A stretch of 64,000 nt of DNA from Alteromonadaceae bacterium (GTDB lineage: Bacteria; Pseudomonadota; Gammaproteobacteria; Enterobacterales; Alteromonadaceae), in the NCBI GenBank assembly GCA_027013165.1, contig JALUXV010000530.1, positions 62,001 through 126,000 of the forward strand, written 5' to 3'. The translations under genes and the position numbers were made by a program. Shown here piece by piece: positions 1,551 to 45,061 of this stretch (the stretch's first letter is position 1; each line of letters starts with the position of its first letter). The notes beneath the pieces are model-generated. The model was not told the DNA's origin, did no database searches, and saw only the letters and a program-made list of their open reading frames with translations.

Positions 1551-2552
1551 CTAAACCCGGTTCGCCGTGGTTCCTCGAACAATAACGTGGGGCTTTAGAA
1601 TATGCTTCATACTCACTTTATTGTTGCCGTAGGCTTGATTTAAGATCCATCGCGCCGCCATAGCGCCAATATCTCTTACAGGATAGTTCACTGTGGTAAG
1701 TTTTGGAGTTAAATAGCTGGCAAAATCGACATTATCGAACCCAATGACAGATACGTCTTCAGGCACTCGCTTCCCATGCTTACGCAACGCATTGATAGCA
1801 CCTGACGCCATTTCATCGTTTGCGCAAGCAATCGCCGTGAAGTGCACACCTCGTTGCAATAGTGTTTCTACACAGTTTTCGCCAGAATAAGCTTGGAAGT
1901 TACCTTCTGCCATGGTGTTTTCATCGTAATAAATGCCCGCTTCTTCAAGCGCTTTTTTATGCCCAGTTAAACGGTTAACACCATCCGCTTTAAACAGCGC
2001 ACCGGCTGCATAGGCTATTTCAATATGACCACAATCGATTAAATGCTTGGTCGCTAAGTATCCACCCAACACATTATCTAAACTGATACATTTCTCACCT
2101 ATGGCTTCTATATAGCGGTTTACAATAACAATGGGAACATCTTGGTTAGCAAGATCGATAAGATAGTCATCATTTACGGCCTCGACATGTAATATCAAGG
2201 CATCGCATCGACGACTCAGCAGGGCTTCTATTTCTTGCTTTTCAAGCGATTCATCACTGTGCCCAGTGACTACAAACATATGCTTATTCGCTTGGCGAAG
2301 TACTTTTTCAGACCCAGCCATCATGGCTCCAAAGAAAGAACCGTGTAATTCTGGTACCACATACCCAACCGTATGAGTTTTGTTAGACGCTAACGCAGCA
2401 GCAATAACATTGTGGCGATAACCCAGCTCTTCCATAGCATTAAGCACAAGCGCTCGCGTTTTTTCTTTAACCGAGTCGGCATTGTTAATAACGCGAGATA
2501 CTGTTGCTGACGAAACACCAGCCCGCTCACTGACTTGTTTAATGGTTACCAT
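1551..2552 (-). CDS. LacI-family transcriptional regulator, probable regulator of the beta-glucan locus
   Basis: N-terminal HTH VTIKQVSERAGVSSATVSRVINN, LacI sugar-binding fold. Confidence 0.9.
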   Translation of the reverse strand: MVTIKQVSERAGVSSATVSRVINNADSVKEKTRALVLNAMEELGYRHNVIAAALASNKTHTVGYVVPELHGSFFGAMMAGSEKVLRQANKHMFVVTGHSDESLEKQEIEALLSRRCDALILHVEAVNDDYLIDLANQDVPIVIVNRYIEAIGEKCISLDNVLGGYLATKHLIDCGHIEIAYAAGALFKADGVNRLTGHKKALEEAGIYYDENTMAEGNFQAYSGENCVETLLQRGVHFTAIACANDEMASGAINALRKHGKRVPEDVSVIGFDNVDFASYLTPKLTTVNYPVRDIGAMAARWILNQAYGNNKVSMKHILKPHVIVRGTTANRV

Positions 2553-2617
2553 GAATCAACTACTTCACATTGATGATGGGTAAATCACATGGTTAAAACC
2601 CCTGCAATTTACCAAAT

Positions 2618-3946
2618 TTACTGTGCTGCCAACCCGAGTTTTTGCTGAATTGACGCGACCTTATGTTCGTCTAATGTATACCAGCGCATAATAATCGCAA
2701 CACATATTGATGCCAGTGCGGGGCCGAGACAGAACACTGCGATAATTCCATTGGCGACTGCGGGCTCATAACTATCGGCTTGATAACCCATAGAAGCCAA
2801 TAACCACCCCGCCAATGCACCACCAAGTGCAAGCCCAACTTTAATGAAAAAGACCACGGTTGAGTAGGTTAAGCCTGTCATTCGAAGCCCTGTTTTGATT
2901 TCGCCATAATCTACAACGTCGGCAATTTTCGACCACAGTAGTGGCGTGGCCATTTGAAGTAATAGCCCCCATAGAAACTGCAATGCGACAGCCAATACCC
3001 ACGCCTGAGATGGCATAAAATAATTGATAATACATATACCAGCGCTAGCAAGTTGGAGGAAAGTATACGCCTTAATTTTCGACACCCGCTTTGCTACCGG
3101 GTTAGCCAAGGCACAGCCAATAATACTGCCTATCATTCCCGCAGTAACAAACAGGGTGGCATCGTCGGGGCGCTGTAGCACATATTTGACATAGTAAAGG
3201 GCCAAAGTGTTTCTCAGCACCATGCCCGTTAACAACACGATAGCTACCACACAAAGCACTCGACATTGGTCATTTTGCCACAGCGACAAAAGCTGCGCTT
3301 TTAAAGGTGCCGGTGCTTCATGAGTGACACTGATGCGCTCTTTCGTTCCAGCAAAGCACAATACAAACAGCACCATTCCCACCGCACTCATTACCAACAT
3401 AGCTCTTTGGTAACCCAACGCATCATCGCCTTGTCCAAGGTAGGATACCAGTGGCAGCATAAACGAGGTAACAAGTAGTCCGCCTCCCATTGCACATACG
3501 AAACGATAAGACTGTACTGATACTCTTTCAGACGCGTCCGACGTTAACACGCCGCCAAGTGCAGAATATGGAATGTTGATTGCCGTGTACATTATCATTA
3601 AAAGTGTGTAGGTCACGAAGGCATAATAAAGTTTACCTTCTTCGGTGAGCCATTCTGGCGAAGTAAAAGCCAACACACTACACATGGCAAAGGGCAAGGC
3701 TAGCCACAGAAGGTAAGGTCGATAAGAACCCCATTTGGTCTTAGTTCTATCTGCCAATGACCCCATTAGCGGGTCGGTAACCGCATCAAAAACCCTAACA
3801 ATTAGGAACATGCTTCCAACGGCCGCAGGCGACAACCCAACAACATCTGTATAGTAGAATGTCAGGAACAACATCACGGTCTGAAAAATAAAATTACTTG
3901 CTGTATCACCCAAACCGTAGGCGATTTTTTCCTTTGCACTTACCAT
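2618..3946 (-). CDS. GPH-family (MelB-like) sugar:cation symporter
   Basis: 12-TM protein with KIAYGLGDTASNFIFQ N-terminus and DPLMGSLADRT motif. Confidence 0.85.
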   Translation of the reverse strand: MVSAKEKIAYGLGDTASNFIFQTVMLFLTFYYTDVVGLSPAAVGSMFLIVRVFDAVTDPLMGSLADRTKTKWGSYRPYLLWLALPFAMCSVLAFTSPEWLTEEGKLYYAFVTYTLLMIMYTAINIPYSALGGVLTSDASERVSVQSYRFVCAMGGGLLVTSFMLPLVSYLGQGDDALGYQRAMLVMSAVGMVLFVLCFAGTKERISVTHEAPAPLKAQLLSLWQNDQCRVLCVVAIVLLTGMVLRNTLALYYVKYVLQRPDDATLFVTAGMIGSIIGCALANPVAKRVSKIKAYTFLQLASAGICIINYFMPSQAWVLAVALQFLWGLLLQMATPLLWSKIADVVDYGEIKTGLRMTGLTYSTVVFFIKVGLALGGALAGWLLASMGYQADSYEPAVANGIIAVFCLGPALASICVAIIMRWYTLDEHKVASIQQKLGLAAQ

Positions 3947-3957
3947 GAACGCTACCT

Positions 3958-5313
3958 CTATCCTTGATTATGAAGGGCCTTTCGCTTCACTAACATCGCT
4001 TGTAGGGATTTTGCACTGTCTTTGAGTGTTCTTACCTGAGAGTCATAATCAACATAAAGAATGCCAAAGCGTTTTTCATAACCCAATGCCCATTCGAAAT
4101 TGTCCATTAGGCTCCATACAAAGTAGCCAGTTATGTTTACCCCTTGAGCCATTGCATCGGCGACAGCGTTCATATGGGAGTTCAGATACCTTTGTCTTTG
4201 TAGGTCTTTTACTTGCCCATCTGGTGTCATTTCATCATCGCTTGCCAAGCCATTTTCGGTAATGATAATCGGAGGAAGCGTGTAGTCTCGATGCAGTTGA
4301 ACCAGAAGATCGGTAAGCCCCTGGGGAAAAACCTCCCACCCCATGGCGGTAGTTTCCTTACCCTCTGCTGGGGGCATTTGATGAGGGTCTTCACTACCAT
4401 TATCTTGCACTCGCGCTCGGGTGTAATAATTTACCCCAAGAAAGTCGATAGATTCAGAGATAACTTCCATATCACCCGGATGTACGTCGGGCTTATGGGC
4501 GTTAGGAATATGCTTAATCAATTCAGGGTATTCGCCATGTATAAGCGGCTTTATATACCAATCGTTATGATGATCGTGAGCAAGCTTTGTCGCGATAACG
4601 TCTTTTTCCTCATTACTTGCCGGATAGAAGGGCGTGAAATTAAGCACAATACCGGATTCAATAGTAGGTGCGTGCTCTCTAAGCACTCGCATAGCAAGAC
4701 CGTGGGCCAATAAAAGATGATGTATGGCTTTCTTTCCGAACTCTTTACCAACCATGCCCGGTGCATGAATACCAACTTCGTAACCCAAATATGCGCTACA
4801 AAATGGTTCATTCAAAGTAGCGTAGGAATACACTCGGTTACCGAAAGCTTTAACCACTACCTCTGCATATTTTTCAAAGGCATAAGCCGTCTGGCGGTTA
4901 AGCCACCCGCCTTCATCTTCTAAGTACTGTGGCAGGTCCCAGTGATACAAGGTGACATAAGGTCTAATGCCCTTTTCAATGAGTCGGTCTAATAAACCAA
5001 TGTAAAAAGCTAAACCATCGTCATTAACGCTTCCATCTTGACGTATAACTCTAGGCCAGCTAACTGAAAATCGATAGGCATCTACATTTAAAGCATCGAT
5101 AATATCAATGTCACTTTCCCAATGTTTCACGTGTTCGCAAGCAACTAAACCGTGAGAGTGATCGGCAATTTTACCTGGGGTTTCACAGAAGGTATCCCAA
5201 ATACTTTTTTCTCTGTGCTCCGCGTCTCCCTCAATTTGAAACGAAGAGGTAGCCACGCCAATAGTAAAGTCTGGTTTTGAAAAGGGAGAACCCAACTTAG
5301 CAATAATATCCAT
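3958..5313 (-). CDS. GH1 beta-glucosidase
   Basis: TLNEP acid/base and ITENG nucleophile motifs, FGILYVDY C-terminal signature. Confidence 0.93.
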   Translation of the reverse strand: MDIIAKLGSPFSKPDFTIGVATSSFQIEGDAEHREKSIWDTFCETPGKIADHSHGLVACEHVKHWESDIDIIDALNVDAYRFSVSWPRVIRQDGSVNDDGLAFYIGLLDRLIEKGIRPYVTLYHWDLPQYLEDEGGWLNRQTAYAFEKYAEVVVKAFGNRVYSYATLNEPFCSAYLGYEVGIHAPGMVGKEFGKKAIHHLLLAHGLAMRVLREHAPTIESGIVLNFTPFYPASNEEKDVIATKLAHDHHNDWYIKPLIHGEYPELIKHIPNAHKPDVHPGDMEVISESIDFLGVNYYTRARVQDNGSEDPHQMPPAEGKETTAMGWEVFPQGLTDLLVQLHRDYTLPPIIITENGLASDDEMTPDGQVKDLQRQRYLNSHMNAVADAMAQGVNITGYFVWSLMDNFEWALGYEKRFGILYVDYDSQVRTLKDSAKSLQAMLVKRKALHNQG

Positions 5314-5456
5314 AGCGCCTTCCTTCAGGCCAATTCAACCTTTAGAAACTCAACCATACTGAGCACAGCCCTACTCACTTTTGCCGATAGGAAGCTCCGT
5401 CGAATTACTCAGGTTTCTTTATGTAGTTCGAAATATAGTTTGAGACTACCACAAAT

Positions 5457-5470
5457 TGTAAGCGCTTTCA
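5457..5470. promoter_or_regulatory. LacI-type operator upstream of GH1
   Basis: TGTAAGCGCTTTCA; same palindrome recurs at 13156, 13188, 13514 and (variant) 17480. Confidence 0.75.
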
Positions 5471-5585
5471 TTATCAAAATCGATAAGGTTTTTACATTTT
5501 TTTTACAGCTGTGCAATGTGCCTACGGGAGTCGATTGAAGGGCTAACTAAAATGCCAATCAGTTAATGCCAAGGTTGCCATAATA

Positions 5586-5610
5586 AAGAGAAAGCAATGG
5601 GCTTTCTCTT
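5586..5610 (-). terminator. Hairpin downstream of the HugZ-like gene
   Basis: AAGAGAAAGC-AATGG-GCTTTCTCTT, 10-bp perfect stem; minus-strand tail only moderately U-rich. Confidence 0.5.
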
Positions 5611-5655
5611 AGCACAATATGAACTTTTTTCAGCTTAACAGACTGGCATTGGGGA

Positions 5656-6384
5656 CTAACTGGCTTTTTTTATACCCAGTTGAGCGCGGGCTTGGTTAGT
5701 TTGTTGAACTAACGCCTTACGCACATCCATACCTGATTCACAGATGTGTTCAAATGGAACAAAATACACAGTGTTATGACTAGTGTAATGCGCGCCCTCA
5801 GGAAACACACTGAGCATTTTCACGTCATTGCTTTCCACGTTGAACTGCGCTTTCAATATCAATTCCATGGCATCGATGTGGTCTTCGTTCATATGGTCTA
5901 TCATGCTTTGTGTAGCACTATGCCAATCTTGACTTTCCACTTTCCACAAGGCTTTTTCAATCCAATGAATTTTACCAAAACCACCAATGAATCGAATTCT
6001 TTGCGTGCGAATGACGTAAAAATTAAAGTCGTGTGTTTGCTCATAGGCCTTTGCTTGTGGAAACAAAGCTAAGTATTGAGCCGATACCTCGGACGCATCA
6101 ATAGGTTCAGCATCGCCCAATATGGTAACCCGTCCATTAGCTTGAGAGTCATCCTGCCCAGCGTCGTAAATCGTCAGACTCACTTTAGGGTCGGCTTTAA
6201 TATTACGGGTATGTAGCGCTATATTGCTGATATAGATAACAGCATCACCCTCAGGGGTAAGGAAATAAGGAACCACCGAGCCGAATGGGTATCCTTGCAT
6301 GGATGTAGAATGTGTACTTAATACGCCACTGTGTTGTGTTCTAGAAAACTGCTTTGCTTCTAGGGCTATTTCTCTAAGGCCCAT
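5656..6384 (-). CDS. HugZ-like haem utilisation / pyridoxamine-phosphate-oxidase-fold protein with DUF2470 domain
   Basis: PNPOx-like split barrel N-terminus (HSGVLSTHSTSMQGYPFGSVVPYF) and C-terminal MIDHMNEDHIDAMELI motif. Confidence 0.8.
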   Translation of the reverse strand: MGLREIALEAKQFSRTQHSGVLSTHSTSMQGYPFGSVVPYFLTPEGDAVIYISNIALHTRNIKADPKVSLTIYDAGQDDSQANGRVTILGDAEPIDASEVSAQYLALFPQAKAYEQTHDFNFYVIRTQRIRFIGGFGKIHWIEKALWKVESQDWHSATQSMIDHMNEDHIDAMELILKAQFNVESNDVKMLSVFPEGAHYTSHNTVYFVPFEHICESGMDVRKALVQQTNQARAQLGIKKAS

Positions 6385-6474
6385 AATACTCCCTCTTGAA
6401 AAATGAATTGGTTAACCGCCAATTCACCAATAGATTTTCGTTTGGATTTGGGTGCTCCCCACGCAAACAAAAAA

Positions 6475-6493
6475 TGATAATGATTAGCATTTA
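6475..6493. promoter_or_regulatory. Putative Fur box upstream of HugZ-like gene
   Basis: TGATAATGATTAGCATTTA resembles GATAATGATAATCATTATC. Confidence 0.5.
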
Positions 6494-6613
6494 GGATAAG
6501 GCATTTATCACAATAAACGCAACCTGCAAATTTCAAGAGGTAGCTCGAATCAAGGCGTAGACTTAAAGTGATTATTCTTTGCGGTACATTTTTTCAGTAA
6601 AGTTCAATGACAC

Positions 6614-8098
6614 CTAGCCAAAATAACGAGCGATATAATCGTTATGAGGAGGTAGCTTTCCAACCGTTCGATCGATCTGTTGGGTAATGCCGTTGAGTAA
6701 TCCCTCTAACTCTTGACGACTCATGGTGTCTACAATGGGGTGGTAGCTCGTCGGCACTAATCCTTGCCCAATCATGACTTGCTGCCACGAATCATCAAAT
6801 AGTTCATTGCCTTCTCTGAACACTCGCGCCGTTTTTTGGAACAAGTCTATACGATGCTTGAGGGAATCAGGTACATCCATTTGACGGCAATGACGCCAAA
6901 ACGGTGTGTCGGTTCTTTGAGTGACATGGTAGTGCAAAATAATAAAATCGCGGATGTGTTCAATATCAAAATCAGCTTGTCTGTTGAACTCGTTAACATC
7001 CTCTTCAACAATTCCCGCGGTTGGGAACATACGTAAAAAGCGCACAATACCCTGTTGAATCAAGTGAATACTGGTTGACTCCAAAGGCTCTAAAAATCCA
7101 CTGGCTAAGCCAAGCGCCAAACAGTTTCTATTCCACTGTTTGCGGCGTCTACCCGTTCTAAAATGAATAACACGAGGATCGTTAAGAGGCTCTCCCTCAA
7201 CATTCCCAAGTAATTTGGTTATCACTTCATCGTCAGAAAGATAGTTGCTGCAATACACCATACCATTGCCAACACGGTGCTGTAGTGGAATTCGCCATTG
7301 CCAACCTGCTTCGTGGGCAATGCAACGGGTGTAGGGGATGGGGTCAGATACCGATTTTGTTTGCACAGCTACAGCACTGTCACAGGGTAGCCAATGAGAC
7401 CAATCCTCATATCCGGTATGCAGTGCCTTTTCGATGAGTAGCCCTCTAAAACCTGTACAGTCAATGAAGAAATCACCTTGCACGGTTTCGCCATTGTTTA
7501 GCGACAGGCTTTCGATAAAACCATTTTCTTCGTTTAGGTTGACACTGTTTATTGTCGCGTCAATGCGCTTTAGTCCATCTTTCTCTGCGAGCCCACGCAA
7601 AAAGCTTGCATATTTAGTAGCATCAATATGGAAGGCGTAATTAAGCCCATTGTTGGGTAAGTGAGCAAACTTGTTTGCTTGAGCAGCTTGACGTTCTAAA
7701 CAATAGTCACCGAAATCCTTTGCTATACCCTCTTTTAGCCCGCGTAGCCAAAAATGTTGGAACCCTGCGGCCCAACAGTCTTTGCCCGTCACACCAAAAG
7801 CATGTAAATAAGCGTGATCTAAAGACTTCCAGTTTTCAAAATTTATCCCAAGTTTGAAGGTAGCATTAGTTGCCGCCATAAACTCCTGTTCGCTAATTTT
7901 CAGTAGTTTATGAAAGAATACCAAGGTAGGGATAGTGGCTTCGCCCACACCAACGGTACCAATATCTGAGCTTTCGATCAGTGTTACATCAACTTCCTTA
8001 CCCAAAATACGAGTGAATGCCGCTGCTGCCATCCACCCAGCGGTGCCACCACCGGCAATCACCAAGCGCTGTTTTCTATGTTGGGATGATGTATTCAT
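6614..8098 (-). CDS. Tryptophan-halogenase-family flavin-dependent protein
   Basis: GGGTAGWMAAA FAD-binding motif, WQWRIP (WxWxIP), FLEPLESTSIHLI and ATFKLGINFENW (candidate catalytic Lys). Confidence 0.9.
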   Translation of the reverse strand: MNTSSQHRKQRLVIAGGGTAGWMAAAAFTRILGKEVDVTLIESSDIGTVGVGEATIPTLVFFHKLLKISEQEFMAATNATFKLGINFENWKSLDHAYLHAFGVTGKDCWAAGFQHFWLRGLKEGIAKDFGDYCLERQAAQANKFAHLPNNGLNYAFHIDATKYASFLRGLAEKDGLKRIDATINSVNLNEENGFIESLSLNNGETVQGDFFIDCTGFRGLLIEKALHTGYEDWSHWLPCDSAVAVQTKSVSDPIPYTRCIAHEAGWQWRIPLQHRVGNGMVYCSNYLSDDEVITKLLGNVEGEPLNDPRVIHFRTGRRRKQWNRNCLALGLASGFLEPLESTSIHLIQQGIVRFLRMFPTAGIVEEDVNEFNRQADFDIEHIRDFIILHYHVTQRTDTPFWRHCRQMDVPDSLKHRIDLFQKTARVFREGNELFDDSWQQVMIGQGLVPTSYHPIVDTMSRQELEGLLNGITQQIDRTVGKLPPHNDYIARYFG

Positions 8099-38988: not shown

Positions 38989-40284
38989 ATGGCACTAGTA
39001 ACACTGATTGTTTTTAATCTTGTATGGGTACTTGGGCTTGTTTGGGCGTGGCAAAAACATATTGTGCTTTTCTTGTTATTACTCGCAGCGGGAGTTGTCG
39101 CGTCAGCCTTGTTTTTACGACGAACTATGCTGCAACAGGCGTCTACATTAGACTTATTAGAAGACGGCTTACTCCACATGTTGGACAATAACTTTGCCAT
39201 AAGTTTGCCTTCAAAAAACGGCAAACAGTCTGCCCAAATACTCTCTTTGTTTAATCAAGTTACCGACAAACTTCGCGTAGAGCGTCAGCACATTTTCCAA
39301 CGAGAATTGCTGCTTGATAAGGTGGTGAATGAATCAAACGTAGTTACCGTGCTCGTTAATCACAACGACACTATTGTTTTCGCCAATCACGCCGCAAAGC
39401 AATGGTTCGAACCAAACTCCACAGCCATGATAGGTGCCGATTGGACACCACTATTTAAAGAAATTACACCGCTTTTTTATCAGCAGCTGAGTGAGCAAGG
39501 CAGTGCCATATGTACGGTAGAAATGGGAGACGCTCGTTCTCAATCCTGGCATGTGAGTCGTTCGCCGTTAAAACTCAATGGTGCTTCCCATACCTTGTAT
39601 TTATTCAAACCCATGACCGAAGCGCTGAACAAACAAGAGCTGGAGATTTGGAAAAAAGCCATACGGGTGATAAGTCACGAGTTGAACAACTCTATCGCAC
39701 CGATCAGCTCTTTGTGTCATAGCGGGCGTTTATTGTCCCAACCCAATGCACTTGAGTACGATGCAGAAAAACTAGAGCGAGTATTTAATGGCATATCACG
39801 GCGGGTCAATCACCTAAACGACTTTGTAAAAAGTTATGGAAAGCTCGCCAAATTAGGCTCCCCCGATAAAGAACAAGTTAACACGCTTGAACTGCTGCAA
39901 GATGTACAACTACTTTACCAGTGTGCTTTGCACGCACCTGATCATTTGCCTCTATTGAATATCGACAAGGCGCAAGTTGAACAAGCACTCATCAACTTAG
40001 TTAAGAATGCCAACGACGCCGCCAGTGCGCCATCCGCCGTTACCATAACAGCAAACGTTCTGCCGACTATGGTGATGATTAGTGTGGAAGACGACGGAAA
40101 AGGCATTCCCGATGATGTTATTCATCAAGTAATGTTGCCTTTTTTCAGTACCAAACAAGGCGGCACAGGGGTTGGACTCGCCATATGTAAAAATGTTGCC
40201 GAAGCCCACAGTGGAAGCCTCACCTTGCGTAACAAGGAAGATGGCGGCCTGATTGCCAGCTTGTCGTTACCCTTGGATAACTAA
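38989..40284 (+). CDS. Sensor histidine kinase
   Basis: Two N-terminal TMs, PAS, ISHELNNSIAPISS H-box, GGTGVGLAICKNVAEAHSG. Confidence 0.93.
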   Translation: MALVTLIVFNLVWVLGLVWAWQKHIVLFLLLLAAGVVASALFLRRTMLQQASTLDLLEDGLLHMLDNNFAISLPSKNGKQSAQILSLFNQVTDKLRVERQHIFQRELLLDKVVNESNVVTVLVNHNDTIVFANHAAKQWFEPNSTAMIGADWTPLFKEITPLFYQQLSEQGSAICTVEMGDARSQSWHVSRSPLKLNGASHTLYLFKPMTEALNKQELEIWKKAIRVISHELNNSIAPISSLCHSGRLLSQPNALEYDAEKLERVFNGISRRVNHLNDFVKSYGKLAKLGSPDKEQVNTLELLQDVQLLYQCALHAPDHLPLLNIDKAQVEQALINLVKNANDAASAPSAVTITANVLPTMVMISVEDDGKGIPDDVIHQVMLPFFSTKQGGTGVGLAICKNVAEAHSGSLTLRNKEDGGLIASLSLPLDN

Positions 40285-40379
40285 CCGTGTAAAAACTGTT
40301 GACTTTGCTACGCGCCAGATCAACACTGACGCTGTTAAATTACACATAAACACAGGTTTCAAAAAGGTATAACTACGCC

Positions 40380-40451
40380 ATGCGCTTAGTCAATTGCAAC
40401 CCGATCACTATTCTGATTCTCGTCATTATTAGGCAATGGCGGGTGTGCTAG
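40380..40451 (+). CDS. Putative branched-chain amino acid attenuator leader peptide (23 aa)
   Basis: ATG...TAG encodes MRLVNCNPITILILVIIRQWRVC with an ITILILVII run, followed by overlapping antiterminator and terminator. Confidence 0.7.
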   Translation: MRLVNCNPITILILVIIRQWRVC

Positions 40452-40481
40452 TGTGTAACTAAAGAATCACTAAAACCCGCC
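40438..40481 (+). promoter_or_regulatory. Antiterminator pairing of the attenuator
   Basis: GGCGGGT (40438-40444) complements ACCCGCC (40475-40481), the ascending arm of the terminator. Confidence 0.65.
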
Positions 40482-40499
40482 GCAACGGCGGGTTTTTTT
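40472..40499 (+). terminator. Rho-independent attenuator terminator
   Basis: AAAACCCGCCG-CAA-CGGCGGGTTTTTTT. Confidence 0.85.
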
Positions 40500-40539
40500 A
40501 TGCAATGTCGTTGCGGTAATTTAAAAGAGAATAATCACA

Positions 40540-40938
40540 ATGACAGACACCATCACCCAATTGTTGGCAAAATTACATACAGCCGTAAACAGTGGCGACA
40601 GCCAAGCCGTTGATAGCTGCTATGCCGAAAATGCAAAAGTTGTTGCCTCGCCTTTAGCCCAGTCTCAGCACCATCCCCATGACTGCGTGCGCGCGCTGCA
40701 AGACTTTCAACGCAAATTTATGCCTCAGCATAATGTTACCCAAGGCGATGAAATTGTTATCGAAGCGGGAGATATTGCACTAGTCATCACTAAACTCTAT
40801 CTAGTGCCTAAAGCAACCCCGGATGCACTGCCGTGTGAGCCTAAAAAAGCCGTGTATGTGATGCAACGGCAAAGTACTGGTGAGTGGCGCTGCATCATCG
40901 ATAACTTTTTTGGTACAGACTTGCTCGACTTTGCCTAA
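40540..40938 (+). CDS. SnoaL-like / DUF4440-type NTF2-fold protein
   Basis: 132 aa; LLAKLHTAVNSGDSQAVDSCYAENAKVVASPLAQ and C-terminal GEWRCIIDNFFGTD. Confidence 0.75.
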   Translation: MTDTITQLLAKLHTAVNSGDSQAVDSCYAENAKVVASPLAQSQHHPHDCVRALQDFQRKFMPQHNVTQGDEIVIEAGDIALVITKLYLVPKATPDALPCEPKKAVYVMQRQSTGEWRCIIDNFFGTDLLDFA

Positions 40939-41015: not shown

Positions 41016-41534
41016 TTATTCAAACTCAACAATCACTTCAATTTCTACCGCAGAGTTGAGGGGTAATGACGACATCCCCACGGCAGAGCGGGCGTGTTTA
41101 CCCTTTTCACCGAATACTTCCACCATTAAGTCGGAAAAGCCATTGATCACCTGTGAATGTTCCGTGTAATCAGCAGTGGCATTTACCATTCCTGTAACCT
41201 TTACAATCCGCACCACCTTATCTAAGCCGCCCAAGTGTTCGGCAATAGTGCTTAGTAGCGAAACACCCGCTTGGCGAGCAGCGGCAGCGCCCTGTTGAGT
41301 GGTAAGGTCCTCCCCCAGCTTTCCAGTTATTATCTGACCTTGTTCATCAAGGGGAATATGCCCTGCGGTAAAGAGTAAGTTGCCCGACTTCACCGCATAA
41401 ACGTAGTTTGCGGTTGGCGCTCCTTTTTCGACTAAAGAAATACCCAAGTTGGCCAAACGTTCATCTACACTCTCATTGGCCTGTGAATGCATAGCAAACA
41501 CAAGGAAGCTTAGTAGCAAGATTACTCTTTTCAT
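41016..41534 (-). CDS. Secreted RidA/YjgF family protein
   Basis: Signal peptide MKRVILLLSFLVFAMHSQA; Rid motifs LLFTAGHIPLD, ARQAGVSLLSTI, ARSAVGMSSLP. Confidence 0.85.
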   Translation of the reverse strand: MKRVILLLSFLVFAMHSQANESVDERLANLGISLVEKGAPTANYVYAVKSGNLLFTAGHIPLDEQGQIITGKLGEDLTTQQGAAAARQAGVSLLSTIAEHLGGLDKVVRIVKVTGMVNATADYTEHSQVINGFSDLMVEVFGEKGKHARSAVGMSSLPLNSAVEIEVIVEFE

Positions 41535-41553: not shown

Positions 41554-42606
41554 CTATACCGGCGCGCTGTCGCCGTCTACCAATGAGAAGGGTAAAATCT
41601 CACTGTGGGATGTGCGATCTAAAAACATTCTTGCGGCCATCGCCCCTTTTTTCACATTAAACTGCTCAACCGTCGCTAGCGTAGGGTGGTAACGGCTGGC
41701 CTCATCAATGCCATCAAAACCTACAATACGAATATCTTGAGGTACACGCAATCCCAGTTTGAGTGCTTCTTGCGTAGCAGTTAATGCAATAACATCACTC
41801 ATACATAATAAGACATCGGGTCGGGGTGTTTTTGATAACACGTGTTGCGCCGCCACTTTGGCATATTTCTGTGAACTCTCGGGGATGTGCCAAATATCTT
41901 CATTCGACACGGTAATATCACACTCTGCGAGCGCTTTCATGTAACCGTCCAATCGACGATGTGATACTGAGAATTCTGAATCGATTAGAGGACTGTCGTT
42001 TACTGCGCAAGCATATTTACCCTCTATTAATCGAAGGCCTAGAATTGCAACACGCTTGGCACCATCACCAAGGGCAACTTTGCCGATTTCATAAGCCGCT
42101 TGATAGTTATCAATATTAACGGAGGGTGCGGTTCCAATATCAAAGTCGGCAGTAACTACGTGTTTGCTAATGTTAGAAAGCTGATTTAGAAGATTTTGGT
42201 TTCTAGGCGCACCATAGCAAATAAAACCGTCAACAAAGTCTACGACATCGTTAACACTGTCATTGCTACCTGAAAACAGCAGCAGATTTGCATCGGTATT
42301 TTTAAGCTCTTGTGCTACACCGCGAATAAATTGGCTTGCTACCGGATCACTCACCATGTAATCCAAGCTGTCGGGTAATACAAGGGCAATAATATTAGTT
42401 TGCCCTCGGCGCAAAGAGCGTGCCGCTTTATTAGGGCCAAAATACCCCATTTCCTCGCACGCTTTTAGTATGCTTTCTCGTTTTTTTGCAGAGAGCTGGT
42501 CAGGTCTATTAAAGGCGTTTGAAATAGTCGCAGTAGAAACGTCTAGTCGCCGCGCTACTTCTTTTATTGTTAGTTTTGCCGAAGTCACGTTATTCCTATG
42601 GATCAA
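41554..42606 (-). CDS. LacI-family regulator, probable sucrose regulator
   Basis: LTIKEVARRLDVSTATISNAFNRPDQLS HTH; first gene next to sucrose phosphorylase. Confidence 0.88.
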   Translation of the reverse strand: MIHRNNVTSAKLTIKEVARRLDVSTATISNAFNRPDQLSAKKRESILKACEEMGYFGPNKAARSLRRGQTNIIALVLPDSLDYMVSDPVASQFIRGVAQELKNTDANLLLFSGSNDSVNDVVDFVDGFICYGAPRNQNLLNQLSNISKHVVTADFDIGTAPSVNIDNYQAAYEIGKVALGDGAKRVAILGLRLIEGKYACAVNDSPLIDSEFSVSHRRLDGYMKALAECDITVSNEDIWHIPESSQKYAKVAAQHVLSKTPRPDVLLCMSDVIALTATQEALKLGLRVPQDIRIVGFDGIDEASRYHPTLATVEQFNVKKGAMAARMFLDRTSHSEILPFSLVDGDSAPV

Positions 42607-42686
42607 TTGCAGCCAATCTTGGACTGATCTTTAAACACAATACCCTTATCATCAGTCGGGTCAAGATTTGGCTGCGTTTTTAATCC

Positions 42687-44162
42687 TTAGGCGGAAAGTA
42701 AGTGGCTGAGCGAAATATTGCTACTAACACCATTTTCTTCGATATCGATATGCGCTTCTAAATTAGCCATATTAACAGTCAATTGCGCTGTATCTTTACC
42801 CTGCTGCCAACGTAACGTTAAGCCATCATCATTCAGCGCCACGCTAAATTCACCATCAAATGCTGCACCTTGATTACGTAGCTTGATCAGTTTAACCAAT
42901 GCTTTTACCACTGGTTTTTCCAACGCGCTTTCAATGTAATCAGTGTTCAAGTGAGGACGATTAATATCCCGGCCAACATTCGTTTTAGCCAACAACTCCA
43001 TATCGTTTGTCGCCGCTAAAAAACCACCGTAGTAAACTTGAGGAATACCAGGGCTAAAGAATTGAATTGCTCTGGCTAGTAGATACTGATAATCATCCTG
43101 CCCTAACGCATCATAATAGGTGCAGTTGATCTGATACAAATCCACATTGCTCGCCGCCGCGCCTGTCGCCTGCTTTGATTGCTCTTTAGAGTTTTTGTGA
43201 ATGCCCTCAACAAGTGCGTCAATTTGACTTTCAGTGAGCAACCCGGCTTTGTCACCACTCGGGCCAACATCTACGATGCCAATGCCATCGTGAGTGTCTA
43301 ATACAGTAAAACAATTACGTGGAGAGATAGACAACCAATGGGCCAGTGCATCTGCATTCTTGCTGAACAGCGTATGCAAAACCAATGGAGGTAAGGCGAA
43401 ATCGTATACACTGTCACAACGCTCGGCAATGGCTATTTGCGTTTCATAGTGACTATGTATTTCAACCAAACATTGCATATCCATTTTTCTTGCGCGATCG
43501 CTTAAGTCTTCGATGAAGCCAAAGGTTTCTTCTAGCATGAAACAGCTGCTACCCGCTCGCTTAATAGCGTAGCCCGCAGCATCAAGGCGAATAAGGTCAA
43601 TATTGCTGGTAGTAAATGCGTTAAGTATGGATGTTAGGTAACGCTGGCCTAAATCAGACTCTACGTCGATATCAATCTGATTTGACGTAAATGTTGTCCA
43701 GAAAGGTACGGTTTCATTGTCGCCCACTATGTAATCGGAAAAACAGGGAGTGGGACGAGGACGAAACACTTTGTCGATGTCTGATGCATTGTCTTCATTG
43801 AAAATAGACCCTTTTGTCAGGAACAAAGGCCAGTACTCAGAACGCGCGCCACGGTTTAACACGTCTTGAAACTCGTCGCTTTGTGCAGACATATGATTCA
43901 CGATGAGATCGGCCATAATATTTACCGAAGTTCCCATCCCTTTCACGTCTTCCCAATTGCCTAAACGGCTGTCGACAGTGGTGTGATCTATGGGGTCAAA
44001 ACCGGCATCTTCACCATCAAAAGGATAGTAAAAAGGCAGAATATGAACGCCAGTAAATAGCCCTTCGAACTGCTTATTCAGTAGGGTATTAAGCCCGGAA
44101 ATTGTGCCTTCGCCCAACCTATCAGCATAGGTAATAAGTTGAACGCCGTTACGTACAGACAT
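42687..44162 (-). CDS. Sucrose phosphorylase (GH13_18-like)
   Basis: NGVQLITYADRLGEGTISGLNTLL; HILPFYYPFDGEDAGFDPIDHTTVDSRLG; DLIRLDAAGYAIKRAG. Confidence 0.9.
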   Translation of the reverse strand: MSVRNGVQLITYADRLGEGTISGLNTLLNKQFEGLFTGVHILPFYYPFDGEDAGFDPIDHTTVDSRLGNWEDVKGMGTSVNIMADLIVNHMSAQSDEFQDVLNRGARSEYWPLFLTKGSIFNEDNASDIDKVFRPRPTPCFSDYIVGDNETVPFWTTFTSNQIDIDVESDLGQRYLTSILNAFTTSNIDLIRLDAAGYAIKRAGSSCFMLEETFGFIEDLSDRARKMDMQCLVEIHSHYETQIAIAERCDSVYDFALPPLVLHTLFSKNADALAHWLSISPRNCFTVLDTHDGIGIVDVGPSGDKAGLLTESQIDALVEGIHKNSKEQSKQATGAAASNVDLYQINCTYYDALGQDDYQYLLARAIQFFSPGIPQVYYGGFLAATNDMELLAKTNVGRDINRPHLNTDYIESALEKPVVKALVKLIKLRNQGAAFDGEFSVALNDDGLTLRWQQGKDTAQLTVNMANLEAHIDIEENGVSSNISLSHLLSA

Positions 44163-44176
44163 GAAAAAATCTCCAA

Positions 44177-45061
44177 TTACGCTGGCGCGATATTCTTCGC
44201 TAGTGCGAAAGCGCCGAAAAGGCCACTGATATCTCCTAATTGCGGAGGCACAATGACGTCACTGATAGACAAATGTGGTGGTAGCGTTAAATAGCCGTGA
44301 AGAGACTGGCTCGTTGCCTCGATAACTCTTGGTAACAAGTGAGACTGAGCCATAACTCCACCACCCATAATAATTTTTTGTGGTGATAAACTAACAAGCA
44401 AGTTATGACAAACTTGCGCGAGCACTTCTACTTGACGCGTCCATGCGGGGTGGCTGGGTTCAAAAGTATGTGCTGGCTGCCCCCACATATGCTCCATTGA
44501 ACGCCCTGCAGCATATCCCTCAGCACAGTTTTCATGGAATGGACAATGCCCTGTTACCCCGTCGATTTTGGGGAGTAACATATGTCCGATTTCAGGGTGA
44601 ACCAGTCCATGTAGCGGCTTACCATTGATAATAACGCCACCGCCTAAGCCGGTACCAACGGTGATGTATACTAAGCTTTCACAGTTTTGCCCTGCACCCC
44701 AAGTATACTCGGCAAGACCAGCGCCATTAACATCAGTGTCTAGTGCAACAGGACAATTCAAAGCGTCGGCCAGTGGACCAATCAAATCAATGTTCGACCA
44801 ATTGGGTTTTGGCGTAGCTGTGATATACCCGTAAGTAGGTGAACGTTTATCTAGATCTAGTGGGCCAAAGCTAGCCACTCCTAGCGCTTCAAATTGCATA
44901 CCCTTGTCACGCTGGGCTTGAAAGAAATCAATGGTCCATGACAAGGTTTCGTCTGGCGTAGTAGTGTCTAACCGGATGGAGTCTAACTTATTTCGATTTT
45001 CATCAAAAATAGCGCAGTTGAATTTAGTACCACCGGCTTCAATAGCTGCGTATATCTTCAT
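44177..45061 (-). CDS. ROK-family fructokinase
   Basis: AAIEAGGTKFNCAIFD; YITVGTGLGGGVIINGKPLHGLVHPEIGHM; Cys/His zinc motif. Confidence 0.88.
   Translation of the reverse strand: MKIYAAIEAGGTKFNCAIFDENRNKLDSIRLDTTTPDETLSWTIDFFQAQRDKGMQFEALGVASFGPLDLDKRSPTYGYITATPKPNWSNIDLIGPLADALNCPVALDTDVNGAGLAEYTWGAGQNCESLVYITVGTGLGGGVIINGKPLHGLVHPEIGHMLLPKIDGVTGHCPFHENCAEGYAAGRSMEHMWGQPAHTFEPSHPAWTRQVEVLAQVCHNLLVSLSPQKIIMGGGVMAQSHLLPRVIEATSQSLHGYLTLPPHLSISDVIVPPQLGDISGLFGAFALAKNIAPA

Follow-up and report, generated by a model that had tools for sequence, protein, structure and literature searches.

Amino acid attenuators are textbook control elements of biosynthetic operons, and the locus considered here raises the question of why a leader of that plan should stand in front of a non-biosynthetic gene, and which amino acid it would sense. 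The window, by which we mean the whole 64,000-nucleotide stretch of DNA analyzed, comes from an Alteromonadaceae genome whose nearest named relatives are Alteromonas. The gene in question (40540-40938, plus strand) encodes a SnoaL/DUF4440 (NTF2-like) protein of 132 residues (Pfam DUF4440, E=3.3e-7). Its closest solved relative is YybH of Bacillus subtilis (2GXF, E=1.8e-21), a sequence relative from the DUF4440/SnoaL family that is itself listed as a hypothetical protein, and the predicted structure of the window protein (pLDDT 69) returned just generic NTF2-like matches. A preliminary description had proposed a branched-chain amino acid attenuator ahead of this gene, and had suggested, as the other option, that the leader once belonged to a biosynthetic operon since replaced.

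The leader ORF, first described as rich in Ile, Leu, and Val, was found where it had been placed, at 40380-40451 on the plus strand. Its 23 codons specify the peptide MRLVNCNPITILILVIIRQWRVC, with Ile at codons 9, 11, 13, 16, and 17. When all ORFs of 10-35 residues on both strands of the window were compared, this was the only one with at least nine consecutive I/L/V/T residues. As a short ORF rich in the putative regulatory amino acid, it resembles those of peptide-leader attenuators. The in-frame pN/pS of the leader core was 0.72 against 1.06-1.09 in the other frames, a value that is mildly lowered and, at 12 codons, weakly informative. Ile is the most plausible signal, Leu coming second and Val being incidental; given that Leu codons are conserved besides Ile in the leaders of SnoaL genes, Leu may add to the signal of these leaders.

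The ORF overlaps and is followed by four strands with alternative pairing partners. Strand 1, the protector (CUCGUCAUU, 40419-40427), covers codons L14, V15, and I16 and is predicted to pair with AAUGGCGGG (40435-40443), which lies within strand 2 (AAUGGCGGGU, 40435-40444). Strand 2 has as its partner either strand 1 or strand 3 (ACCCGCC, 40475-40481), the latter pairing forming the antiterminator, and strand 3 may instead form an intrinsic terminator with strand 4 (GGCGGGT, 40487-40493, followed by a T-tract to 40499). The complementarity of the first GGCGGGT (40438-40444) to ACCCGCC, and the positions of the second GGCGGGT and the T-tract, were as originally described. To that scheme can be added a second, distal antiterminator helix, TAGTG (40449-40453) with CACTA (40468-40472), which contains the leader stop UAG. 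An internal ACCCG (40399-40403), to which a sequestering role had been given, was ruled out as the protector because it is unconserved, reading ACCCA in the closest relative and being absent elsewhere; the strand at 40419-40427 takes its place.

Each of the 21 distinct leaders folded, that of Alteromonadaceae M269 included, has a predicted protector helix that occupies five to six bases of GGCGGG and overlaps the regulatory codons, and the protector strand was mostly CUCGYYAUU on Leu-Ala/Val-Ile codons. The GGCGGG of strand 2 was invariant in 18 aligned leaders. Within each of these 18 distinct leaders the energies were similar, ranging across the set from -14.8 to -19.6 kcal/mol for the antiterminator and from -15.5 to -17.2 kcal/mol for the terminator, which is what a switch would be expected to show, and the two structures, the second ending in its T-tract, are predicted to be mutually exclusive. 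The leader fold was better than 200 of 200 shuffles (z=-3.75). Ile codons 9-13 lie just 5' of strand 1 and the stop UAG (40449) just 3' of strand 2, an arrangement of strands and codons that is the classical attenuator geometry.

Directly upstream of the leader, on the same strand, a sensor-kinase gene ends at 40284, a position that would also suit a simpler explanation, namely that the hairpin merely terminates the sensor-kinase operon and that the ORF arose by chance. The leader has, however, a dedicated promoter of its own at 40299-40327 on the plus strand, consisting of a -35 TTGACT (40299-40304), a 17-base spacer, and a -10-like AACACT (40322-40327). The -10 is poor, which weighs against an Ile attenuator, and a strict scan for consensus promoters did not list this one; the evidence for it is therefore conservation rather than a consensus match, the motif TTGAC[AT]-N17-[AG]AYACT being common to all leader-bearing loci among L001-L030, with AATAAT once. 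Upstream genes vary among the relatives, while the promoter, the peptide, and all four strands stay, which refutes the idea that the element merely closes a kinase operon. We regard the simple terminator as scarcely credible.

An orthologue of the SnoaL gene was found in 34 of 60 Alteromonas genomes, most being 64-96% identical and four 48-52%. Directly 5' of the gene in 31 of the 34 loci is an intact leader with promoter, Ile-rich peptide, protector hairpin, antiterminator, and terminator, such that the conservation across relatives on which the attenuator proposal was to be judged was borne out. The exceptions were L003, which is without the leader, L011, which retained the terminator alone, and L015 (G007:C1, about 3994536-3994650), in which the leader peptide is intact and the 3' arm of the terminator has been lost. 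Constitutive expression of the SnoaL gene would be expected at L015 from the loss of this arm. A covariance model of the SnoaL-gene leader, R1, matched the leader in 22/22 Alteromonas genomes with the SnoaL gene and in 0/19 without it, in a set of related genomes that do not amount to 41 independent observations.

When 250 genomes of the family were searched with R1, a related leader with a peptide ending in RIIII(I)P was also detected 5' of a gene for a small P-loop kinase related to PRK08118, the "DNA topology modulation protein" FlaR. R1 also picked up the ordinary thr leaders of these genomes, which served as a positive control. Where the sequence upstream of the kinase gene could be read, an Ile leader of the RIIIIP type was present in most cases (17 genera). 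Such FlaR/PRK08118-like kinase genes with the conserved Ile leader were noted at loci L080-L106 and L159-L183, in many genera of the order. A second model, R2, was built solely from kinase leaders of other genera, and its single strong match in the window was the SnoaL leader element (E=1.7e-6 over the window), indicating that the SnoaL and kinase leader types share an architecture. A second R2 match in the same genome (C511:11404-11490, E=0.018) was rejected as another attenuator; it resembles a plain terminator and has no Ile-rich leader. The assembly comprises 586 contigs with 6.5% contamination, and since it is fragmented the absence of further copies of the element from this genome is provisional. 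No Rfam attenuator family matched in the window at the gathering score, and as of a 2013 study of such regulons there was no Ile/Val attenuator model in Rfam (PMC3766115).

Covariation was examined with the related leaders. Across 48 of them, 97.4% of the pair cells were standard in an alignment that was fitted to the model and thereby favors structure, slid controls dropping to 31-55% paired. Six of the 14 pairs had changed on both sides, and 0/500 shuffles reached the observed pairing values. Pairs equivalent to the strand 2/3 antiterminator were 99.6% standard (47 related leaders), and the terminator of the kinase leaders covaries from CCCGCC/GGCGGG to CCCACC/GGTGGG. Strands 2-4 are near-invariant among the SnoaL leaders, and the covariation there comes mainly from the related kinase leaders.

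These comparisons bear on the possibility that the leader once preceded an ilv/leu operon that was then replaced in the lineage of the window. The layout is indeed like that of ilv/leu leaders, and the genes behind the related element do switch between genera. Nonetheless, the leader and SnoaL gene form a stable unit in Alteromonas, as seen in the R1 counts above, which recurs in other genera; a SnoaL/DUF4440 gene is downstream in all 34 Alteromonas loci, and neither R1 (250 family genomes) nor R2 (395 genomes of the order) found an ilv or leu operon behind a homologous leader. The leuA gene of the same genome (L116, G000:C126), moreover, has a separate canonical leu leader, MNSRVLLTTLLLMAARLHG, and terminator, on the same plan as the window element. 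The earlier description had suggested checking whether the genome's ilv operon has a leader of its own; in the genomes examined (loci L127 and L128 left out), no Ile-rich leader was seen ahead of ilvE-ilvD or of the gene for acetolactate synthase. Recent replacement of a biosynthetic operon was rejected on account of the stable Alteromonas unit, the lack of ilv/leu targets, and the separate leuA leader, and we consider a replaced operon very improbable.

On this evidence from sequence, ribosome-mediated attenuation of transcription very probably operates here: charged tRNA-Ile, and to some extent Leu, would be sensed, and a single SnoaL/DUF4440 gene controlled. The original proposal of a branched-chain attenuator 5' of a non-biosynthetic gene may accordingly be kept in a narrower form, with mainly Ile as the signal and with a conserved peptide, hairpins, and promoter. 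What the comparisons establish is the sequence of this attenuator, its conservation and covariation, its co-occurrence with the gene, and the list of targets; the cellular response and the biological purpose are inferences. Transcription would proceed from the dedicated promoter near 40300. With ample Ile-tRNA, the ribosome would complete the peptide and sit on the UAG at 40449, masking strand 2, such that strands 3 and 4 would form the terminator and transcription would stop near 40499. With Ile-tRNA scarce, the ribosome would stall at Ile codons 9-13 and mask strand 1, leaving strand 2 free to pair with strand 3; the terminator would then be blocked and the SnoaL gene transcribed. If the leader were not translated, strand 1 would pair with strand 2 and the terminator would form. 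The element would be one of a set of order-wide Ile attenuators whose other targets are the FlaR/PRK08118-like kinase and a type-2 isoleucyl-tRNA synthetase.

This range of targets emerged from the search with R2, which gave matches in 112 of 395 genomes of the order, many of the low-scoring ones being plain terminators or thr leaders. Among the best 30 matches, the next gene is the FlaR-like kinase in most. One genome, G623, has behind its match a SnoaL-like gene whose product shares 33% of its residues with the window protein (E=3e-21), preceded by the leader peptide MNSKQTQSQQIIIIIQNEWWVC. A further NTF2-like gene, in G075 and found with R1, follows a leader built on the same plan and rich in branched-chain residues. 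An isoleucyl-tRNA synthetase gene lies next to the match in G416 and G397, among the best 30, and in G378 and G518 among the lower matches. The corresponding type-2 IleS loci, each behind an Ile-rich leader and attenuator, are L197 (G378:C56), L187 (G397:C11), L185 (G416:C107), and L196 (G518:C1). The IleS behind the element is a second copy in G378, G397, and G416, beside the housekeeping IleS1; these second copies are 25-29% identical to type-1 IleS, including the housekeeping copies of their own genomes, and are type 2 by their best solved relatives. A separate search for type-2 IleS found it in 4 of the 395 genomes, with 4/4 copies behind the element, in keeping with Ile as the signal.

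The kinase, SnoaL, and IleS2 targets are almost mutually exclusive in the genomes checked. Within one genus, G354 has the kinase and G378, G397, and G416 have IleS2; the kinase relative in G378 and G397 is a distant one only (36-38% identical). In two genomes from different genera (L239 of G043, 4651-7028, and L151 of G218, 2551-7450), a TetR-like regulator, a small membrane protein, and a leaderless FlaR-like kinase are grouped with a divergent SnoaL-like gene, the regulator and membrane protein being named from reading the sequences rather than from a family search. The SnoaL-like proteins of these two groups are 39-41% identical to the attenuated SnoaL protein of G623, and these gene groups hint that the kinase and the SnoaL protein may act in one process.

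What the attenuator is for can be read in two ways. It may be an alarm for IleRS inhibition, in which inhibitors of the pseudomonic acid/thiomarinol class would deplete Ile-tRNA, stall the ribosome, and induce a protective gene, a reading we hold as possible but tentative; equally tentative is the assignment of the protective role, which would fall to the resistant-type IleRS2 in some bacteria and to either the FlaR-like kinase or the SnoaL-like protein elsewhere. In its favor are the placement of all four type-2 IleS copies behind the element, as second copies beside IleS1 in three of the genomes, the way the targets largely substitute for each other even within one genus, and the proximity, in G043 and G218, of a SnoaL-like gene to a kinase of this family that has no leader. 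Type-2 IleRS are mupirocin resistant (PMC10485003), and thiomarinol, a product of marine Pseudoalteromonas, targets IleRS, with a second ileS as the resistance gene (PMC3069032). Against it, the kinase and SnoaL families have no known resistance function, these particular IleS2 enzymes are taken to be resistant by virtue of their type, and neither an inhibitor pathway nor IleS2 was found among the matches in the fragmented window genome.

Alternatively, the attenuator may serve the cell's general reaction to a lack of isoleucine or of branched-chain amino acids, in which the SnoaL protein and the kinase would do a housekeeping or metabolic job with no link to inhibitors. This is a serious possibility, if short of probable, and at least as likely as the inhibitor alarm. 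The sensor would answer any drop in Ile-tRNA charging, the SnoaL leaders have Leu codons too, and starvation is the usual trigger for attenuators of this group; yet no Ile biosynthetic, uptake, or catabolic gene was found behind the element, and an auxiliary type-2 IleRS is no obvious remedy for starvation. Still more guardedly than the inhibitor alarm itself, we advance the broader suggestion that there is one order-wide Ile-tRNA attenuator acting as an IleRS-inhibition alarm with interchangeable protective genes, in which case the kinase and SnoaL proteins could be unrecognized defenses against compounds of the mupirocin/thiomarinol type.

The element shares with the ilv/leu/thr peptide-leader attenuators of Gammaproteobacteria an amino acid-rich peptide, a competing antiterminator and terminator, and a protector hairpin, but its target is non-biosynthetic, and it stands apart as a type, with peptide and strand sequences conserved in their own right. 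Attenuation of a gene for an antibiotic-resistant auxiliary TrpRS in Streptomyces coelicolor was reportedly described by Vecchione and Sello in 2010. That system, in which ribosome-mediated attenuation acts on a second, resistant synthetase gene, would be a precedent for the IleS2 members of the present set, although it concerns Trp, Actinobacteria, and a synthetase target, whereas the window element concerns Ile, Gammaproteobacteria, and a SnoaL target. The IleRS2 of P. megaterium, mupA of S. aureus, and tmlM of the thiomarinol cluster are each a second IleRS, resistant to inhibitors, that accompanies a housekeeping enzyme (PMC10485003, PMC3069032), and the IleS2 behind the sister elements, which is of type 2, is comparable; in contrast, no Ile peptide-leader is described for these genes there, and no second IleRS gene was among the matches in the window genome. 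The TrpRS precedent, the mupirocin resistance of IleRS2, and the second ileS of thiomarinol producers make an IleRS-inhibition alarm a coherent, if unproven, reading.

PMC10485003 names just a small group of Bacillaceae as having IleRS1 together with IleRS2, and Gammaproteobacteria now join the few bacteria reported with both. The mechanism itself is known; the conserved set of non-biosynthetic targets appears to be new, and a search of the open-access literature returned nothing on a leader of this type with a SnoaL gene or the kinase. The regulation offers a clue to the function of both the SnoaL/YybH family and the FlaR-like kinase, which would be expected to act when Ile-tRNA charging fails. 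An IleRS inhibitor gives a direct test, through induction and sensitivity of the controlled genes, and the covariance models can now be used to find further targets of Ile attenuators of this type.

Convergent on the SnoaL gene is a RidA/YjgF-family gene (41016-41534, minus strand) with a signal-peptide-like start, to which the preliminary description had drawn attention. The convergent gene is present as described, and also at the closest relative, L002, but it is missing in L154 and L155, both of the other Alteromonas neighborhoods examined, and its significance as a functional partner of the SnoaL gene was unsupported. Beyond it, at 41554-45061 on the minus strand, are a LacI-type regulator (Pfam) and then putative sucrose-phosphorylase-like and ROK-type sugar kinase genes, the names of which come from sequence reading only.
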